Below, in pieces: positions 2,318-31,217 of a stretch of DNA of 31,217 bases (within the stretch, counting starts at the first letter, position 1; each line of letters begins with the position of its first letter). The notes beneath the pieces were generated by a model. That model did not search any database and was not told where the DNA came from. It was given only the letters and a program-made list of their open reading frames with translations. Source of the stretch: a virus; IMG/VR virus record IMGVR_UViG_3300032360_000034, positions 1 through 31,217 of that record; one strand, given 5' to 3'. Both the position numbers and the translations under genes were made by a program.

Positions 2318-3079
2318 CTAACCCATAGGACATTTCCCCGCATCAGCCTCGCGCTGGTGCTTGCGATAAAGACCCTTTCTATTGCCAGCCCGGAACCCAA
2401 AGGTGCCCACACCACGGTTCCAACCCATATCCCACATTTCTTTAAGTCCCATAATGATCGTCTTGACCTTGTCGTTCCTCTTGACAGGAATCAAGTGGTA
2501 TAACGGAGTTCCCGCACGCACTTCAAACGACTCCCCCGTCATCACACGAATAACAGCATGAAGATTGTGGTAGTAATCCGTGTTCACAATGGCTGGTAGA
2601 ACTTCATAACGCGAATCAGGTTCATAGGCCACCGGCAGAACCAGCATCGAATAACCCGGAGCAGTCTTGTACAGATAGGGGGATACCAATTTCAAATACG
2701 ATGCCTTTGGACGCGCCCTACCATCATTGATGGGGGCACCTTCGCAAGAGTCGTAATGAAAACGTTCTACACCAAAAAAACGATCCGCTGGTGTCGCTAC
2801 GAACTCCGCATGACCCATCGGATCAAACTGCATGTCACACCACAGCGGCACTGTAATGCCCAAAGAGAGATAGTCCTGAATCCCCTTACACCCAAGCATC
2901 GTAGTATTCCGATTCTTCGGCATGTTCTTCCACCAATCAGGCCAAGTGGTGCCATTGACTACGGGAGGATTCTCTAATAGGCGATAGTCCTTAGGAATCA
3001 TCAATATTTCTCCGGGCTTGACCTTGGGCCAATCCCGGTAAGTTCTAATTTTATCTGAGTTCTTTAAGCGCTTCAGCAT
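2318..3079 (-). CDS. DUF6065-like protein next to halogenase
   Basis: A 253-aa protein. The middle to C-terminal part carries KLVSPYLYKTAPGYSMLVLP...IVNTDYYHN...F.VRAGTPLYHLIPVKR. I recall this arrangement (KTxPGYS, IVxTDYY, GTPLxxxIPxKR) from the DUF6065 family of phage and bacterial proteins of unknown function. The N-terminal part holds PDWWKNMPKN and VPLWCDMQF. No signal peptide or membrane segment is seen. The ATG at 3079 overlaps the 3' end of the halogenase gene by 29 bp and has a GAGAG ribosome binding site, so the two are co-translated. The overlap argues that it works with the halogenase or the oxygenases, for example as substrate binder or partner enzyme. That function is inference only. 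Confidence 0.75.
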   Translation of the reverse strand: MLKRLKNSDKIRTYRDWPKVKPGEILMIPKDYRLLENPPVVNGTTWPDWWKNMPKNRNTTMLGCKGIQDYLSLGITVPLWCDMQFDPMGHAEFVATPADRFFGVERFHYDSCEGAPINDGRARPKASYLKLVSPYLYKTAPGYSMLVLPVAYEPDSRYEVLPAIVNTDYYHNLHAVIRVMTGESFEVRAGTPLYHLIPVKRNDKVKTIIMGLKEMWDMGWNRGVGTFGFRAGNRKGLYRKHQREADAGKCPMG

Positions 3080-4538
3080 GATCTCTCGTTGGTCTGGAAT
3101 ATTTAGCCTGTTTCAAATCATACAAGTAATTCTCCACCCTGTCTGCTACACCATACGCTGCTATCGAATCCAATGCCACTTCAGCACTGAGTAGTCCTTG
3201 CCCCTGAGCAACATGATAGAGATGGAGCATCCTGAACAGTAACCACGGCCCCTGTATGTCCGTATTCTCCGGTTGACGCTCTGACCAAACTCCCAACAAA
3301 TGTTTCAAACTATCTGGAATGGGCATACTTTTCTGTTCACGCCAAAATTCCGTGTCTTCACGATCACTTATATAATGAAGCCGAATCATATCTCTAATAT
3401 TCAACATCATATTGTTCATCATAATATTGTACTGCTTTATGCTGTATCTATTCTCTCTCCGAAACGAAGCCAAAAAACCCAACAATGCAAAAGATTGATT
3501 GATCGTTGATCCAATGGAAGTAGCCTCAAGAGGTTCAACGAAGGAACTTGACAAACCCACCGCCACACAATTCCCAACCCACATCTTTTCTAGATAACCG
3601 GGATCAAATTGGAAATGTTTGTAGTCCGATAGTTTGATGTCCAATAGTTCTTCCATCTCGGACACGACATCTTCCTCTGAGCAAAACTTTGAAGAATAGA
3701 CGTAGCCTCTTCCCCGTTCCGTTTGTGTCGGAATCTCCCAAGCCCAACCGTTCCTCAGGGCCGTCGCCCGCGTGTACGGACGAATCTCCCCACTGGGATC
3801 TGCATCAGCGCGAAAGGCAATCGCAGAGTCGGTCAACAGGTAATCGCTAAAAGAGTTCCATTTCATATCGGGTAGATTTGACATCAAAATCCTGTTGAAA
3901 CCCGAAGCGTCTATCCAGAAATCGGCCTCAACCGGATACTCTAAAGTATCTATGTCAACGCTTTCTATCCAATCCGAATCGGATAGATTCACATCCCAAA
4001 CCTCACCATCAATGATTTTGATATTACGCTTTTTGCATTTCAAAGTTAAAAATTCATTCAACAGGTGGGTATCAAAATGAAATTGATTAACACCATCATG
4101 TGGATTTTCTGCCAGAACAATATTATTCCTCGGATCACCGAACATCGTGGCGTCCGAAAGAAGAATCCCCTTCGCCTGCAACCCCCCATACGAACCATGA
4201 AATTCTCCAACATGAGGACTTCCCTTGGACTCACCCGCAATCGAATGAAAATAGTCTGGCGTATGATTAGTCCATCCTTCAAAGCGAATGCCCTTTTTAT
4301 GAGTAGCACTCGTGGCCGGGATCAGATCAGCAACCTTGATATCAACGAAGTTCATAAAGCCTCGCCAATGTTCCGTAGACCCCTCCCCTACTCCTATGGT
4401 GCCGATTTTGTCAGACTTAATAATAGTTATTTGATATTCAGGAAATGTCTTTCGCAGGATCAAGGCGCATATCAATCCAGCGTTTCCCCCGCCTACGATC
4501 ACTACTCTTCGATCAATAATTCCCGTTGTATCGTGCAT
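3051..4538 (-). CDS. FAD-dependent tryptophan-halogenase family protein
   Basis: The 495-aa length is close to the roughly 500-540 aa usual for flavin-dependent tryptophan halogenases. The FAD-binding GGGNAG is at residues 16-21 and IGVGEGST at 48-55. Lys81 sits where PrnA has its catalytic Lys79 (HKKGIRF against FKAAIKF). The halogenase signature WxWxIP is present as WAWEIP at 265-270. FVEPLEAT (333-340) holds Glu335, equivalent to the PrnA active-site glutamate, so the enzyme looks intact. Family chemistry is FADH2- and O2-dependent halide oxidation and halogenation of an aromatic substrate. It needs a separate flavin reductase, and none is seen in the window. It lies 3 bp after a 2OG oxygenase gene and overlaps the DUF6065-like gene. 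Cyanophage homologues are known, such as VirX1 of phage Syn10. The substrate here is unknown. Confidence 0.93.
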   Translation of the reverse strand: MHDTTGIIDRRVVIVGGGNAGLICALILRKTFPEYQITIIKSDKIGTIGVGEGSTEHWRGFMNFVDIKVADLIPATSATHKKGIRFEGWTNHTPDYFHSIAGESKGSPHVGEFHGSYGGLQAKGILLSDATMFGDPRNNIVLAENPHDGVNQFHFDTHLLNEFLTLKCKKRNIKIIDGEVWDVNLSDSDWIESVDIDTLEYPVEADFWIDASGFNRILMSNLPDMKWNSFSDYLLTDSAIAFRADADPSGEIRPYTRATALRNGWAWEIPTQTERGRGYVYSSKFCSEEDVVSEMEELLDIKLSDYKHFQFDPGYLEKMWVGNCVAVGLSSSFVEPLEATSIGSTINQSFALLGFLASFRRENRYSIKQYNIMMNNMMLNIRDMIRLHYISDREDTEFWREQKSMPIPDSLKHLLGVWSERQPENTDIQGPWLLFRMLHLYHVAQGQGLLSAEVALDSIAAYGVADRVENYLYDLKQAKYSRPTRDHAEALKELR

Positions 4539-4541
4539 GGT

Positions 4542-5147
4542 CTACTGAAACCAAGTCACTAGTACATACTTCTCCCCTTCTTCTACCGGAAGGGCCTTAT
4601 GGGAGTATGGAAAACAGGCTGGCATCAATACGAGAGTTCCGGGTGTTGGCTTAATCTCAACATCGAATAATGGAACTGCCAATTCTCCACCGATGTAATC
4701 GTCGTTCAAATAAAGAAGCAACGACAGTAAACGCATATTTGTGGAACTTGCATCGGCATGCATCCGATATTCCGCTTCGTTTCTGTATCTCAAACAACGT
4801 AGTCCTTGATTCTTTTGCAGTTTCAAACCGAAGGCCGACCGATAGTTGTGGATTTGCACTTCGTATGTATTTATCAGATCCAACAAATGATTTCTCAAAT
4901 CTACAACATGCGAATCGTTGGCATACTCAATTCTATCTCCGAGGATTTCATGGAAATCCATTTCAACACTGGTTCTATATTCAGAGATAACATTCCTAGT
5001 TCCCTCTTCAGGACCATAAACTAGGGATCTCTTCCACGGTGCCACAGAAGGATCCATATCCCCAACTATTTTTATCTTATCCAGCAAGCCTTCCGCTTCT
5101 GAATATAATCCATCCCATACACATATACCCGGCGCTATTTGTTCCAT
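4542..5147 (-). CDS. 2-oxoglutarate/Fe(II) oxygenase, prolyl 4-hydroxylase type (second copy)
   Basis: A 201-aa double-stranded-beta-helix oxygenase. The iron ligands are readable: HAD at 130-132 (His130, Asp132) and His183. The 2-oxoglutarate-binding Lys193 lies ten residues after the distal His, in SHKALPVEEGEKYVLVTWF. The stretch LLLYLNDDYIGGEL (144-156) is the usual P4H core strand. It couples O2 and 2-oxoglutarate turnover to hydroxylation of a substrate, in P4H relatives often a peptidyl proline. The ATG follows the stop of the other oxygenase by 1 bp, with AAGGA about 6 nt before it. It differs clearly from the neighbouring oxygenase in sequence, so this is not a recent duplication. 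The substrate is unknown. The neighbouring Pro-rich adhesin is an attractive candidate. Confidence 0.9.
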   Translation of the reverse strand: MEQIAPGICVWDGLYSEAEGLLDKIKIVGDMDPSVAPWKRSLVYGPEEGTRNVISEYRTSVEMDFHEILGDRIEYANDSHVVDLRNHLLDLINTYEVQIHNYRSAFGLKLQKNQGLRCLRYRNEAEYRMHADASSTNMRLLSLLLYLNDDYIGGELAVPLFDVEIKPTPGTLVLMPACFPYSHKALPVEEGEKYVLVTWFQ

Positions 5148-5148
5148 C

Positions 5149-5802
5149 TCAATCCTTCACCTGAGCCAAAATATAAATCTTCTCGCCAGCAGTATTCGCC
5201 AATGACCGGTGTTCGGTATGCCATGTCGTGGGCATCATCAGCACCTCGCCCTTCTTGGGTTTATACTTGACTCTTTCACCTTCGGAATCACGAATATTTT
5301 TGAACTCTATCTCTCCGCCTTCATAGTTGTCATTGACGTAGAACAAGTACGTTCCCGTTCTTCCACCTTCTCGCGTATCCTGATGAAAATCAAAATACCC
5401 CTGCCCATCTGGATATATCAGGAGTTCGTCATTGGCCCCAGATCGGAAATAATAACCAATACCCAAATCCTTTGCAAGGATGTGCTTCATCTCAATCAAG
5501 GTATCCCATACCAGTTCATGTAAAAGCGAATACTCTCCACGCAACTCTTTGAGCATTCCTGCGGTGTAGCAAAACCGTTTCTCGATGTCTACATAAGGAG
5601 GGAGGCTTTTCCCTTCCTTATTTTTAGGATACATTTTTGACAGTTCAAAGTAATCATTTTCTGATCCGTCATAATAATCATCAATATATTTCTGCGCTAC
5701 TTTACAAATAGCACCAGCAGCAGTAAAATTGAAAACGTAAACGCTAGGACAAATTTCCCTAACCCGTTCACCCTGACCCAAAGTCACCGTCATTTGTGAC
5801 AT
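5149..5802 (-). CDS. 2-oxoglutarate/Fe(II) oxygenase, prolyl 4-hydroxylase type (first copy)
   Basis: A 217-aa member of the same fold as the next gene. HQD at 140-142 supplies His140 and Asp142, His198 is the distal ligand (WHTEHRS), and Lys208 is spaced ten residues later in GEKIYIL. FYVNDNYEGGEIEF (154-167) is the core strand. The N-terminal about 100 residues (ICPSVYVFNF, then helices) are not shared with the second copy. The gene starts 2 bp after the stop of the repeat-rich adhesin gene and lacks a clear ribosome binding site, so translation is probably coupled. It likely performs hydroxylation of a peptidyl or small-molecule substrate. Other phage enzymes of this family are usually annotated only as oxygenases, and specificity cannot be read from sequence. 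Confidence 0.9.
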   Translation of the reverse strand: MSQMTVTLGQGERVREICPSVYVFNFTAAGAICKVAQKYIDDYYDGSENDYFELSKMYPKNKEGKSLPPYVDIEKRFCYTAGMLKELRGEYSLLHELVWDTLIEMKHILAKDLGIGYYFRSGANDELLIYPDGQGYFDFHQDTREGGRTGTYLFYVNDNYEGGEIEFKNIRDSEGERVKYKPKKGEVLMMPTTWHTEHRSLANTAGEKIYILAQVKD

Positions 5803-23255: not shown

Positions 23256-24749
23256 TTACAAGACACCTGCGGTCATATTGGACTTGGTAATGTTGACTGT
23301 GATTTTATCACCAACAGCAGATACACGAACTGCAACATCAGCAGTAACTTTTCCAGCAGCAAGATCCGATGTTGGGTTGTTACTACTATTCACTGTAACC
23401 GAATAACCTGCATCAATCTGTTTACCGGCGGCGTCGAAAGCCTCATACACACCACCAGCCTTGCGGATCGGCTCAAGAATCGCAGTCAACGAGGCCGCAA
23501 TCCTTGCGAACAAACCACCACGACCATCAATCGTCTGGAAGACATGCTGTTCAAGGGCTGTCTCCGCCCGATAGGTGATGTGATTCATCGTGTCCCGATG
23601 GGTGATGAAACGCCAGTTGTTCTCATCCGAAGAAGCAGAACGAGCGCCATACACTCGAACCTTGCCATTGATCAGCCGCAAGGCATTGACCCGAGCATTA
23701 TCCAACTCGTCACCAGTCGCCTTATCCATCGACACCGTGCTTGGAGCCGACAGGCCGGAAACAAATCGGGCTTCCGAAATCGTACCGGCACCAACCCGCC
23801 ACGGACCCTTAGCAGCGTTACACGCCTTGGCCCGCTTGGCCATCGCATACGCAGTCGGATCAGTTGAAATCGTCAGTCCGGCAGCGGCAGGATCGGGAAT
23901 CTTCACCCACGGATAATAGAAAGCCGCATACATGGCATCCCCATCCGTATAAATCGCTGGCGAAGCACCACTGATCGCCGTCTTAGCACCAGAATCCGTA
24001 GCAGTGGAAGCGAAAGAACAGAACGCAATTCGGTCATTGGCTTTGCCATGATCGATCAACGCATGCCAATAGGCCGCCGCTGTTCCAACGCCGGGCATTG
24101 CCACGGCACCCGGACCAAGATCCTTGCTGATTTTAGCAAGAGCCTCAATATGGTTGTCGGTTGCAGACCCACCGGTATCCAGCGTTCCGTCTGCACCGCT
24201 AGCCGTCGCGGTCTGCGCTCCAGCCACCGGCATGTTGCTGGCACCAGACTCTTTGGCAACCGTAACAATATGCGGTACACCAAGATTGACCGCTGAAACC
24301 AACTCATCAAGAGTGGCAAGGTCACCAGTAAGCAGAACAACTGCGTCGTCAAGGTATACCTTGACCCGGACACCTGCGACGTTACCGGCGACAATCTGAA
24401 TGTCCAGATTCGCCGCCCATGCCCCAACGTCAGCCGCCGTAAACGTGGCTACAGCCGAACCGCCAGAATCATTAACGGCCAACGAGCCCGCAACGGCAGC
24501 ATCAGCCACCGTGCGCTGAACGTACAAACGGGAGCCGCCTTCTTCAAAGAACGTCTGCGCGTAGGAATACAGATTCCCAGACACATACCCACCGTAATAC
24601 TTTTTGTATTCAGTGAGATTCCGAACGAGGGTTGGTTCCGACGCTTTGCCCCTGACAGTGGTTCCAACCATGAAACCCTGACCTGAAACCTGTTCGCCGG
24701 GGGGGACCGGACCGGTACGAACTGAGGTGTTTACTACGACTCCCGGCAT
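23256..24749 (-). CDS. Tail sheath protein
   Basis: A 497-aa protein. The N terminus MPGVVVNTSVRTGPVPPGEQVSGQGFMVGTTVRGKASEPTLVRNLTEYKKYYGGY...LYSYAQTFFEEGGSRLYVQRTV is the classic sheath opening, and the C-terminal part (RTETALEQHVFQTIDGRGGLFARIAASLTAILEPIRKAGGVYEAF) is the conserved inner domain, followed by a beta tail. The middle, about 100-200, is a variable outer domain. It is the contractile outer sheath. A strong GGAGG ribosome binding site and a 119-bp leader with a promoter-like sequence suggest high, separate expression. Confidence 0.94.
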   Translation of the reverse strand: MPGVVVNTSVRTGPVPPGEQVSGQGFMVGTTVRGKASEPTLVRNLTEYKKYYGGYVSGNLYSYAQTFFEEGGSRLYVQRTVADAAVAGSLAVNDSGGSAVATFTAADVGAWAANLDIQIVAGNVAGVRVKVYLDDAVVLLTGDLATLDELVSAVNLGVPHIVTVAKESGASNMPVAGAQTATASGADGTLDTGGSATDNHIEALAKISKDLGPGAVAMPGVGTAAAYWHALIDHGKANDRIAFCSFASTATDSGAKTAISGASPAIYTDGDAMYAAFYYPWVKIPDPAAAGLTISTDPTAYAMAKRAKACNAAKGPWRVGAGTISEARFVSGLSAPSTVSMDKATGDELDNARVNALRLINGKVRVYGARSASSDENNWRFITHRDTMNHITYRAETALEQHVFQTIDGRGGLFARIAASLTAILEPIRKAGGVYEAFDAAGKQIDAGYSVTVNSSNNPTSDLAAGKVTADVAVRVSAVGDKITVNITKSNMTAGVL

Positions 24750-28411: not shown

Positions 28412-30577
28412 ATGTCATTATCCAAAGAATTCCTAACACCCTACTCTTCAAAGACCCCCCCATGGGGCTTTGACGGACTCGGCTATATCGTGTACAAGCG
28501 TACCTACGCCAGAATTCTCAACTCGGAATGGCCCACCCCTACGAAAATAAGAAAAAGGGTGTCCGAATTGCAGCCCAGAAAGGAAGTGGTCGGCTCAAAG
28601 GTAGCCAAAATGGTGAAGGCTGCGGAAAAAAAACTGTGGAATCTTCTAGATGAAGAAATCTCCATCAGCAAGGATGGCTATATAATCGACGGCCACCATC
28701 GTTGGACCGCCATGATTGAAATGGGGCTTAACGATGAGTTCATCAATGTGAACAAAGTGGATTTAACTCTTGATGAAGTCTTAGCAGACGCCAACCAAAC
28801 AGAGGAATGGTGGCAAACCTGCCAACGGGTCGTAGACGGTGCAAACGCCATCGGAGCAGAACTCACCAAAGACGAATCCGAACGCCTGTTCGACTACATG
28901 TTCAACTTCAAGGGCTTGCCCGGCGGGCGCATGCTTTGGCAATTGGGAACCCCAAACAACTTCAGGCTTGGTGGCGACAGCCTTTGTAACTGCTGGTTCG
29001 TAGATATCAAAAAGCCTGAAGATTTTGCATGGATGTTTGAACGTCTCATGCTCGGCGGAGGCGTCGGCTTTTCCATTCTTAAACCACAACGCCTCGGAGT
29101 TGTCCGTCAGGGCATCGTCCGTAACCATAACGTCCCCGACGCCGATTACATCGCTCCCGACAAACGGGAAGGCTGGTCAGAATGTCTTCTGCGGGCTATG
29201 AAAACTTACCTCGGAGACAAAGACGATCCGACAGAACTTTCCTACTCCACGGAAATGATCAGACCTGCGGGTGCCCCAATCAAGACTTTTGGTGGCACCG
29301 CATCCGGGCCGGGCATTCTTGTAGAGGGTATTACAAAAATCTGCGCCCTTCTGGATACAGCCGTGGGCCGTCATCTACGCGCCACGGAAGTCTTAGACAT
29401 AGGTAACATCATCGGATCGGTCGTCGTGGCGGGCAACGTTCGGCGGAGCGCTGAAATTGCTCTCGGAGACCCATACGACACCGACTACCTCAACGCCAAG
29501 CGGTGGGATCTAGGAAACATTCCACCCCACAGGGCCATGTCAAACAATAGTGTTGTCACATCCGACACCAGCACCCTCCCCAACGCCTTTTGGGAGGGGT
29601 ACCACGGCAACGGCGAACCATACGGCCTGTTCAACTTGAAGGCCGCACGGCAACTTGGGCGTAGCCACGAAGTTCGCCCAGATAATACAATCGAAGGAAC
29701 CAACCCCTGCGCTGAAATTGGTTTAGCCAATCGTGAATCCTGCAACCTCGCAGACATCTTCCTCCCCAATGTCGAATCACAAGATGAACTTATAGACATT
29801 GCAAAACTCTTGTACAAAATCCAAAAAGCAATTGCTGCTCTACCTTATTTGGACCCCGAATCTGATGAAATCACGAGCAAGAACATGCGACTCGGTCTTG
29901 GAGTTTCGGGCATTGTCCAAGCAAAAGACAAATTAGATTGGCTATCACCAACTTATGAAATGTTGCGCGACTTCGACCGATACTGGTCCACCTACAAAGA
30001 ATGGCCACTATCCGTTCGACTGACAACGGTCAAACCAAGTGGAACCCTCAGCCTCCTCGCAGGAGTGACCCCCGGCATCCACCCCGGATACAGCCGATAC
30101 CACATTCGCCGTGTCCGCATGGCTGCTAACGACCCGCTCCTCCCCTACTGCGAATCCCGTGGTTATAAGGTTGAGTGGGTCGAAAATGACAACCGCACCA
30201 AGGTTGTGGAATTTCCCTGTGAATTCCCAGAAGATACCGTCTTTGCTGAGAACATGACCGCTGTTGACCAATTGGAACTCCAATGCAGGCTCCAGCGTGA
30301 TTGGGCAGATAATGCCGTTTCAGTAACAGTTTATATCAGATCCGAAGAACTTGATGATGTCAAACAATTCCTCAACAAGAATTGGTCAACCATGAAATCG
30401 GTTTCTTTCCTTCTTCATAACGAACATGGATTTGCTCAAGCACCCCTAGAGACCATCTCGTTAGACACCTACCGGAAAATGTTAAGTGGCATCAATAATG
30501 AAAGAATCCCGATTGGTGTCGGAGCCAGCCAATTAATAGATGACGATTGCGCCACCGGAGCCTGCCCCATCCGATAA
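28412..30577 (+). CDS. nrdJ: Class II (B12-dependent) ribonucleotide reductase, monomeric type, with inserted ParB-like domain
   Basis: A 721-aa reductase that makes deoxynucleotides for phage DNA. The order and motifs follow the Lactobacillus leichmannii enzyme. Cys194 (GDSLCNCW) and Cys444 are the substrate-reducing pair (C119/C419). Cys433 and Glu435 (NPCAE) are thiyl-radical Cys408 and Glu410. The terminal CATGACPIR has Cys713 and Cys718, the C-terminal redox shuttle. KPSGT is at 541-545. Class II needs adenosylcobalamin and no oxygen or iron cofactor. In the N terminus, YKRTYARILNSE (28-39) and WWQTCQRVVDG (133-143), which are near-continuous in family members, are separated by about 90 residues. 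That insert (about 40-129) has the ParB/sulfiredoxin-like motif KDGYIIDGHHRWTA (87-100), then NVNKVDLTLDEVL. All RNR motifs are intact, so the insert appears tolerated. Confidence 0.95.
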   Translation: MSLSKEFLTPYSSKTPPWGFDGLGYIVYKRTYARILNSEWPTPTKIRKRVSELQPRKEVVGSKVAKMVKAAEKKLWNLLDEEISISKDGYIIDGHHRWTAMIEMGLNDEFINVNKVDLTLDEVLADANQTEEWWQTCQRVVDGANAIGAELTKDESERLFDYMFNFKGLPGGRMLWQLGTPNNFRLGGDSLCNCWFVDIKKPEDFAWMFERLMLGGGVGFSILKPQRLGVVRQGIVRNHNVPDADYIAPDKREGWSECLLRAMKTYLGDKDDPTELSYSTEMIRPAGAPIKTFGGTASGPGILVEGITKICALLDTAVGRHLRATEVLDIGNIIGSVVVAGNVRRSAEIALGDPYDTDYLNAKRWDLGNIPPHRAMSNNSVVTSDTSTLPNAFWEGYHGNGEPYGLFNLKAARQLGRSHEVRPDNTIEGTNPCAEIGLANRESCNLADIFLPNVESQDELIDIAKLLYKIQKAIAALPYLDPESDEITSKNMRLGLGVSGIVQAKDKLDWLSPTYEMLRDFDRYWSTYKEWPLSVRLTTVKPSGTLSLLAGVTPGIHPGYSRYHIRRVRMAANDPLLPYCESRGYKVEWVENDNRTKVVEFPCEFPEDTVFAENMTAVDQLELQCRLQRDWADNAVSVTVYIRSEELDDVKQFLNKNWSTMKSVSFLLHNEHGFAQAPLETISLDTYRKMLSGINNERIPIGVGASQLIDDDCATGACPIR

Positions 30578-30851: not shown

Positions 30852-30857
30852 GTGCGC

Positions 30858-31217
30858 ATGCGAGTAGAAGTCTATCGTAACTTACATAAAAATTGCTTTA
30901 GTGTTCGCGCATTGAGTGGCGAGAACAAGGGCCGGGTCATTGACCATGTGCAATCCATCATGCTCAAAGATGCAACATTCGTTGTCCAACCCGCCGGGAG
31001 AAAACGTGTACTACAAGAACAGCGAAAAAATGTCCACGCCTTCGTGCGCGGGACAACCACCGACCAGCCGATACAACACGGCCTATCAGTCCGATACGAC
31101 CCATATCTAAACGACGCGTTTGTCGTGACTCGGCCCATGCGGTCTAAAGATTACGACGAAATTATCCGAAAAGCCAAACAGGTCCATATGTCCTTTGAGG
31201 ACGGTCATTCCAAGATT
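30858..31217 (+). CDS. Conserved phage hypothetical protein, 3' end cut
   Basis: The ATG frame is open for 120 codons to the right edge. The protein (MRVEVYRNLHKNCFSVRALSG...GRVIDHVQSIMLKDATFVVQPAGRKRVLQEQRKNVHAFVRG) matches a pattern I remember from a phage and bacterial hypothetical family (VEVYKNLHK, FVVQPAGR.RVL.E..KNVHAFVRG), with Arg-rich nucleic-acid-like surface. Function unknown. It continues beyond the window. Confidence 0.8.
   Translation, partial: MRVEVYRNLHKNCFSVRALSGENKGRVIDHVQSIMLKDATFVVQPAGRKRVLQEQRKNVHAFVRGTTTDQPIQHGLSVRYDPYLNDAFVVTRPMRSKDYDEIIRKAKQVHMSFEDGHSKI

Follow-up and report, generated by a model that had tools for sequence, protein, structure and literature searches.

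An optional, mobile ParB/sulfiredoxin-like domain inserted in the N-terminal part of a viral class II ribonucleotide reductase

Why should a class II ribonucleotide reductase (RNR) carry, within its N-terminal part, a segment resembling ParB and sulfiredoxin (Srx), and how did the segment come to be there? The question is raised by one gene of an IMG/VR virus contig of 31,217 bases, the whole of which was analysed and is referred to as the window, and which also carries tail sheath, baseplate, endolysin and connector genes. No description of a ParB–RNR fusion was found in the literature searched, as judged by titles and abstract openings. None occurs in the excerpted text of PMC4490671, and by word search 'ribonucleotide' is absent from the main text of a 2025 survey of the ParB fold (PMC12704722), 'ribonucleotide reductase' from that of PMC5512222, and 'ParB' from those of PMC9669993 and PMC9531940. 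Enzyme and fold are each familiar; what is new at this locus is their combination, together with evidence that the domain moves. Its place in the N-terminal part of a class II enzyme makes this domain of a nucleotide-binding fold a possible control module of independent evolutionary origin.

The ribonucleotide reductase and the site of the insert

The gene is an apparently intact open reading frame (ORF) encoding a monomeric-type class II RNR (NrdJ/RTPR) of 721 residues (Table 1). The initial annotation described the ORF, its class II identity and the sequence DGYIIDGHHRWTA just as they are recovered here from the ORF list, Pfam and phmmer. The protein matches L. leichmannii RTPR (pdb 1l1l; phmmer E 6.3e-84) and phrog_367 (E 1.5e-129), and Pfam recognizes RNR barrel, alpha and class II insertion domains within it. 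The full-length AlphaFold2 model has a pLDDT of 74.6, and 1l1l ranks first when the model is searched with Foldseek (E 4e-42, TM 0.72). Residues C194, C433, E435, C444, C713 and C718 are the equivalents of C119, C408, E410, C419, C731 and C736 of 1l1l and are intact both in the alignment to 1l1l and in an alignment of 25 RNRs. The two proteins share the whole enzyme, including the active-site cysteines and glutamate and the C-terminal redox pair. These equivalents, together with the PF21995 insertion domain that stands in for a dimer interface, identify the protein as a monomeric class II RNR. No ATP-cone was detected in it by Pfam scan.

Table 1. Positions in the window of the RNR gene, the inserted domain and associated features
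Feature	Coordinates	Strand	Evidence
Class II ribonucleotide reductase ORF, 721 aa, containing the inserted domain	28412..30577	+	Sequence searches, Foldseek
First part of RNR alpha domain, residues 3-36	28418..28519	+	Pfam RNR_Alpha residues 3-38, profile 1-35
Inserted domain with predicted ParB/Srx fold, about residues 37-126, edges good to a few residues	28520..28789	+	Pfam, alignments, AlphaFold2, Foldseek, VIA-align, HMM
DGHHRW pocket motif, residues 93-98	28688..28705	+	D-G-H-H invariant, 44/44 rows
Second part of RNR alpha domain, residues 123-180, overlapping the last insert residues in the Pfam match	28778..28951	+	RNR_Alpha profile 32-101
3' flank, 42 nt from T130, co-transferred with the insert in L183	28799..28840	+	Mismatch comparison
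C194, equivalent of C119 in 1l1l	28991..28993	+	Alignment; invariant among 25 RNRs
Class II RNR insertion domain, residues 244-313, typical of monomeric enzymes	29141..29350	+	PF21995 E 5.1e-9
C433-A-E435, equivalents of C408 and E410, thiyl radical site	29708..29716	+	Alignments
C444, equivalent of C419	29741..29743	+	Alignments
C713...C718, C-terminal redox pair, equivalents of C731 and C736	30548..30565	+	Alignments

The L. leichmannii enzyme contains no ParB/Srx domain, and its residues 40 and 42 flank the insert site, as the segments matched by phmmer stop at chain residue 40 of 1l1l and restart at 42. The RNR_Alpha profile is continuous across the insert, since profile positions 1-35 match before it (residues 3-38, N-terminal piece scanned alone) and positions 32-101 after it (residues 123-180, whole protein). 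The initial annotation was correct in treating the two RNR parts as nearly continuous in the L. leichmannii enzyme, but the extent that it gave to the insert, residues 40-129, shifts to about 37-126 by Pfam and phmmer. Likewise, the interval 28412-28801 covers RNR residues 1-130 and not the insert alone, the inserted part being nt 28520-28789.

The insert site is a length-variable linker of 6-8 residues in the N-terminal alpha domain, and the insert sits there in frame and without splicing signals. Among the best 80 of 194 viral matches to residues 1-130 the flanking RNR segments are adjacent, with no insert, in 77. A script found 6-8 residues between the KRTY(A/S)R and TEEW-type motifs in 74 of these, and the three that it missed (L017, L019 and L065) have short linkers by eye. 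In the other three (L001, L002 and L003) the two motifs are separated by 95-98 residues. L001 and L002, 99.9% identical over 1725 nt, are the same contigs as L182 and L183, and L003 is L181. As L001 and L002 represent one virus, the insert has three distinct known carriers, the window, L183 and L181, and besides the window it occurs on three IMG/VR contigs belonging to two further viruses.

Every one of these sequences is a metagenomic contig, which is the one circumstance that would favour an assembly chimera or a frameshift artefact. Such an error can be dismissed with near certainty, because the same insert recurs at the same site with identical junctions in three other contigs (L182/L183 and L181) from two further viruses, and the frame is open throughout and under purifying selection (see below).

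Pattern scans of IMG/VR, which were exact and so miss variant motifs, gave an RNR in three of seven stretches matching WGF..DGHHRW, in three of 29 matching a relaxed form, and in all three matching WPTPT..DGHHRW. The RNR matches of all three patterns fall on the same contigs, and no donor gene was found in these scans. The expectation that RNRs with this insert would prove neither common nor already described is borne out by this rarity, with three IMG/VR contigs besides the window in three scans. L206 was considered as a fourth carrier and rejected, its 'RTY' arising by chance and out of frame. One exact pattern scanned against GTDB genomes matched seven stretches, none of them in an RNR, and a tblastn search of isolated phage records with residues 1-130 gave three weak matches, none annotated as RNR.

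The insert is not an intein or intron

Inteins carry Cys, Ser or Thr at the N-splice site, and His-Asn followed by Cys, Ser or Thr at the C-splice site. There is no His-Asn at the 3' junction of the insert (...VLADANQTEEW), and although a Ser lies two residues into the insert the remaining signature is absent. An intein or intron was rejected on this lack of a splice signature and on the coding constraint acting on the insert. The inteins of phage RNR genes are also in-frame segments present or absent among close relatives; the insert differs from them in having no splice-junction residues and in being located in a variable linker rather than a conserved motif.

Intein-like in-frame segments were seen in two related RNR genes. 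In L089 (3290-6262) a long segment follows NC at the C119 site, and in L047 (from about 3833) the segment shows HN-S before AQIAVGD.

Fold and family of the inserted domain

The AlphaFold2 model of the insert, built from 44 alignment rows, has a pLDDT of 91.4 and a pTM of 0.80, with secondary structure in the order E-H-E-E-H-E-H. Foldseek against the PDB gave a best E of 1.9e-4 and three matches at E <= 0.001, the top rows listed being pNOB8 ParB-N, Srx, Atu1540, SbnI, Noc, ParB and SerK. With VIA-align the best Z was 8.3 over 86 residues; all 33 matches listed are of the ParB/Srx type, and 32 of them have Z between 6.3 and 8.3. Among the Foldseek and VIA-align matches listed, the fold relatives are ParB/Noc/KorB, Srx, SerK, SbnI, PadC and Atu1540. 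A single Z near 8 is modest, and the weight of the modelled fold comes from unanimity and coverage. The proposal that the segment is a separate and complete ParB/Srx fold is supported by the predicted structure of the domain and its matches. In the full-length model, where three alignment rows cover the insert, the means of 10-residue blocks in this region are roughly 46-75 pLDDT, and the packing of the domain is not fixed by the model.

Sequence profiles point the same way. A hidden Markov model trained on 41 phage domains outside RNRs, and excluding the RNR inserts, matches the RNRs of the window (E 2.6e-19 at Z 24736), L183 (3.2e-18) and L181 (8.2e-16). The match is not due to chance, because neither 2000 shuffled copies nor three insert-less RNRs gave any hit passing E 10. 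The best families for the insert are phrog_2859 (E 1.1e-11, function unknown), phrog_5931 and phage ParB-like families, and viral models named ParB/Sulfiredoxin also match it. The window insert falls below the cut-off of the curated Pfam ParB-type models (ParBc_2 17.9 bits against 23.6; DUF1015 14.2 against 25.8), so membership of the superfamily is claimed on the fold and the phage-relative profile only. DdrB-like ParB (PF18763) matched only one of the three inserts, at no better than E 0.042. The inserted segment is almost certainly a ParB/Srx domain within an RNR.

The N-domains of the CTPases ParB, Noc and KorB (pdb 5k5d, 7ol9, 7bnr, 8qa9) have the same fold as the insert (Z 6.5-8.3). However, the insert, about 90 residues within the RNR, is without the helix–turn–helix (HTH) and C-terminal dimerisation domain of ParABS-type CTPases by Pfam scan, and has DGHHR in place of GERR. 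Its LQPRK stretch presumably resembles box I of ParB. The best sequence relatives in the PDB are archaeal free serine kinases and the Pyrococcus homologue 1vk1 (E 0.01, with DGHHRW). SerK (5x0b, 1vk1; Z 8.2 for SerK) and SbnI (5uje, 5ujd) have the ParB/Srx fold in common with the insert, and DGHHRW is found in SerK, but the catalytic Glu30 of SerK is not conserved and the rest of the approximately 240-residue kinase is absent.

A search with the three inserts gave 149 relatives in viral contigs, of which the best 80 were kept. These DGHHRW relatives occur as stand-alone proteins of about 150 residues and in proteins of 1,000-1,500 residues or more; mostly the phage protein concerned is of unknown or polyvalent type rather than a metabolic enzyme. 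Nine of these proteins were scanned with Pfam, and two gave matches above cut-off, ART-PolyVal in L103 and a poly(A)-polymerase head with NT5C in L128. The phage DGHHRW domains (phrog_2859, phrog_5931 and polyvalent-type) belong to the same subfamily as the insert; they differ in sitting in other proteins and in keeping a conserved Gln (41/41). The occurrence of the family in so many other phage proteins supports the earlier suggestion that the domain was captured.

A single phage protein of L128 (3575-7042) combines a DGHHRW domain with two others, a poly(A)-polymerase head and NT5C deoxynucleotidase.

Residues of the predicted pocket

We equate DGHHR of the insert with GERR of ParB and GCHR of sulfiredoxin, each taken as a pocket motif with a conserved Arg. 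The Arg (Arg97 in the window insert) and Trp of DGHHRW are kept in all three inserts. In sulfiredoxin the catalytic Cys lies in the GCHR motif; this Cys is absent from the insert, which reads DGHHR there and contains no Cys.

All 41 non-RNR rows, as read from the sequences (alignment column at least 90%), have a Gln immediately ahead of the first long helix. This Gln is missing from all three RNR inserts, where Arg/Lys is found in the window and L183, and Ser/Leu in L181. We infer that it occupies the position of ParB Q52. The M. xanthus ParB mutant Q52A is without CTPase activity (PMC12462528; likewise PMC9178275; both in excerpt). E30 of SerK, for which PDB titles list the mutants E30A and E30Q, aligns with K57 of the insert in the HMMER alignment and with Leu in L181. 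SbnI requires Glu20 and Asp58 (PMC9641203, in excerpt).

These substitutions bear on whether the domain could be an active enzyme fused to RNR, such as a free-serine-kinase-like protein, a nucleotidase or a nuclease. Free serine kinases are its nearest PDB sequence relatives, DGHHR is kept, and nuclease and NTPase activities have been reported for several ParB-like domains (PMC5512222, in excerpt). Nevertheless, with the SerK catalytic E30 replaced by Lys (Leu in L181) and the family Gln gone in three of three RNR inserts, an active enzyme is very unlikely, the serine kinase reading being lowered by the loss of E30.

Mobility and selection

In a tree of 23 RNR sequences from which the insert columns had been removed, each insert-bearing RNR pairs with an insert-less one. 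The window RNR pairs with L005 (support 99/97, 91% identity), L183 with L020 (100/100, 97.3%) and L181 with L027 (96/96, 88%). Forcing the three insert-bearing RNRs together costs 333.5 log-likelihood units, and the AU test (p 1.6e-11) rejects them as a clade with one ancestor. The three inserts themselves form one clade (100/100, the bootstrap of the insert tree being not fully settled) and group with 13 other phage DGHHRW domains (95/84). Between the window and L183 the nucleotide identity is 83-87% in the insert and 61-81% in the other 100-column blocks of the gene.

Over about 8 kb L183 and L020 run collinear at 97-98% nucleotide identity, with a lone break at the insert. They provide a natural near-isogenic pair for comparison, 97.3% identical with and without the insert respectively. 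On the 3' side they differ at 16 positions of the first 42 nt and at 50 of the next 1,734. This flank in L183 is nearest to RNRs of the window clade (86%, 36 nt), whereas its L020 counterpart is nearest to its own clade (L025, 83%). As the flank is foreign and the sequence beyond it near-identical to L020, the insert and about 42 nt of 3' flank entered L183 together. One early gain followed by many losses across the RNRs is not formally excluded, but the foreign 3' flank argues for a gain in L183. The 3' flank of L181 is 94% identical to that of the window over 36 nt; gain is less sure here because EEWWQT also occurs in more distant insert-less RNRs and the flank could be ancestral. Measured against the inserts of the window and L183, that of L181 is far older, with saturated synonymous sites, and it is only about 55% identical.

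The insert of the window compared with that of L183 has dN 0.102 and dS 0.47, a ratio of about 0.22 over 95 codons, the body of the gene being saturated (pS 0.80). The insert is thus constrained as a protein. The discordant RNR tree, the single insert clade, the greater conservation of the insert and the 3' flank of L183 mark it as one captured domain that is optional, horizontally mobile and under purifying selection. Movement of a single domain, in one piece, among the alleles of an enzyme gene is of relevance to protein evolution, to the engineering of domain insertions and to the ParB-fold field.

The same-site presence and absence, the single insert clade on discordant RNRs and the co-transferred 3' flank would also suit a selfish, non-splicing insert, in which the domain would act as a ParB-like nuclease and drive its own spread into RNR alleles that lack it, in the manner of intein homing endonucleases; the related RNRs L089 and L047 do carry likely inteins. 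Ordinary homologous recombination, however, explains the same pattern, no target site is known, and the nuclease activity reported for the ParB type is largely not sequence-specific (PMC5512222, in excerpt), which leaves a selfish insert highly improbable.

The domain may instead be a tolerated passenger, brought from another phage protein into a permissive linker and spread by ordinary phage recombination with no role for the RNR. Its rarity (three contigs plus the window), its presence or absence between RNRs that are 97.3% identical, the loss of the conserved family Gln and the length-variable linker at the site all agree with this. The dN/dS of about 0.22 over 95 codons and the retention of DGHHRW in three inserts, despite the divergence of that of L181, do not, and we regard a passenger as unlikely.

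A putative nucleotide-binding accessory module

The insert is not needed for the reaction, because RNRs 91% and 97% identical to its carriers do without it. That a 97%-identical enzyme can dispense with it is the chief argument against an essential role. L. leichmannii-type RNRs reduce NTPs, so an NTP-binding module could sense substrate. The ParB/Srx fold is described as a CTP-, ATP- or GTP-binding module that has been repeatedly fused to other domains, in phages among others, with a nucleotide specificity that is not reliably predictable from sequence (PMC12704722, in excerpt). Overall-activity regulation of RNRs is tied to N-terminal ATP-cones that act via oligomers, and most class II enzymes have lost these cones (PMC9669993, in excerpt). 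The ATP-cone of other RNRs is likewise an N-terminal extra module that possibly senses nucleotides; it belongs to a different family, and the likeness is one of analogy only.

The insert may be a putative nucleotide-binding accessory module that tunes the activity or location of the RNR, a reading to which we give a probability of roughly 45%. The predicted DGHHR pocket would bind an NTP, and with the Gln or Glu presumably linked to hydrolysis or kinase action replaced, binding would be more likely than turnover. Nucleotide binding could then change the contacts of the domain or pair two RNRs, as in ParB-N domains with CTP and in ATP-cones, and might in this way modulate how active the enzyme is, or where it acts, NTPs being its expected substrates. 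Between DNA binding and nucleotide sensing, both raised in the initial annotation, we lean towards putative nucleotide binding. A more specific version, in which a portable nucleotide-gated module is swapped in and out of a monomeric class II RNR and serves as a convergent on/off switch, perhaps through nucleotide-driven pairing of monomers, is rather doubtful.

A domain of this kind could also act as a localiser or adaptor, tethering the RNR to the replisome, DNA or another phage protein so that dNTPs arise where they are used, or countering host defence. Large phage proteins often contain members of the family; one such protein has an ART-PolyVal domain and another has poly(A)-polymerase-type and NT5C deoxynucleotidase domains, and the ParB-like domains of polyvalent proteins have been proposed to act early in infection (PMC5512222, in excerpt). 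On the other hand, no HTH or other DNA-binding domain is attached by Pfam, no second copy of the domain is present in the window, L183 or L181, and no partner was identified; a localiser or adaptor role is unlikely.

Other genes in the window

A gene of the tryptophan-halogenase family (PF04820, E 2.5e-100) lies beside two 2OG-Fe(II) oxygenase genes within the tail gene cluster (3051-5802, minus strand). The tail sheath protein (23256-24749, minus strand) has about 36% identity to Gordonia phage sheaths, and 72 of the 93 phage records that it matched are Arthrobacter phages. Downstream of the RNR gene, at 30852-31217 on the plus strand, is a protein like gp82 of Mycobacterium phage L5 (PF25735, E 2.9e-35), cut by the end of the window.
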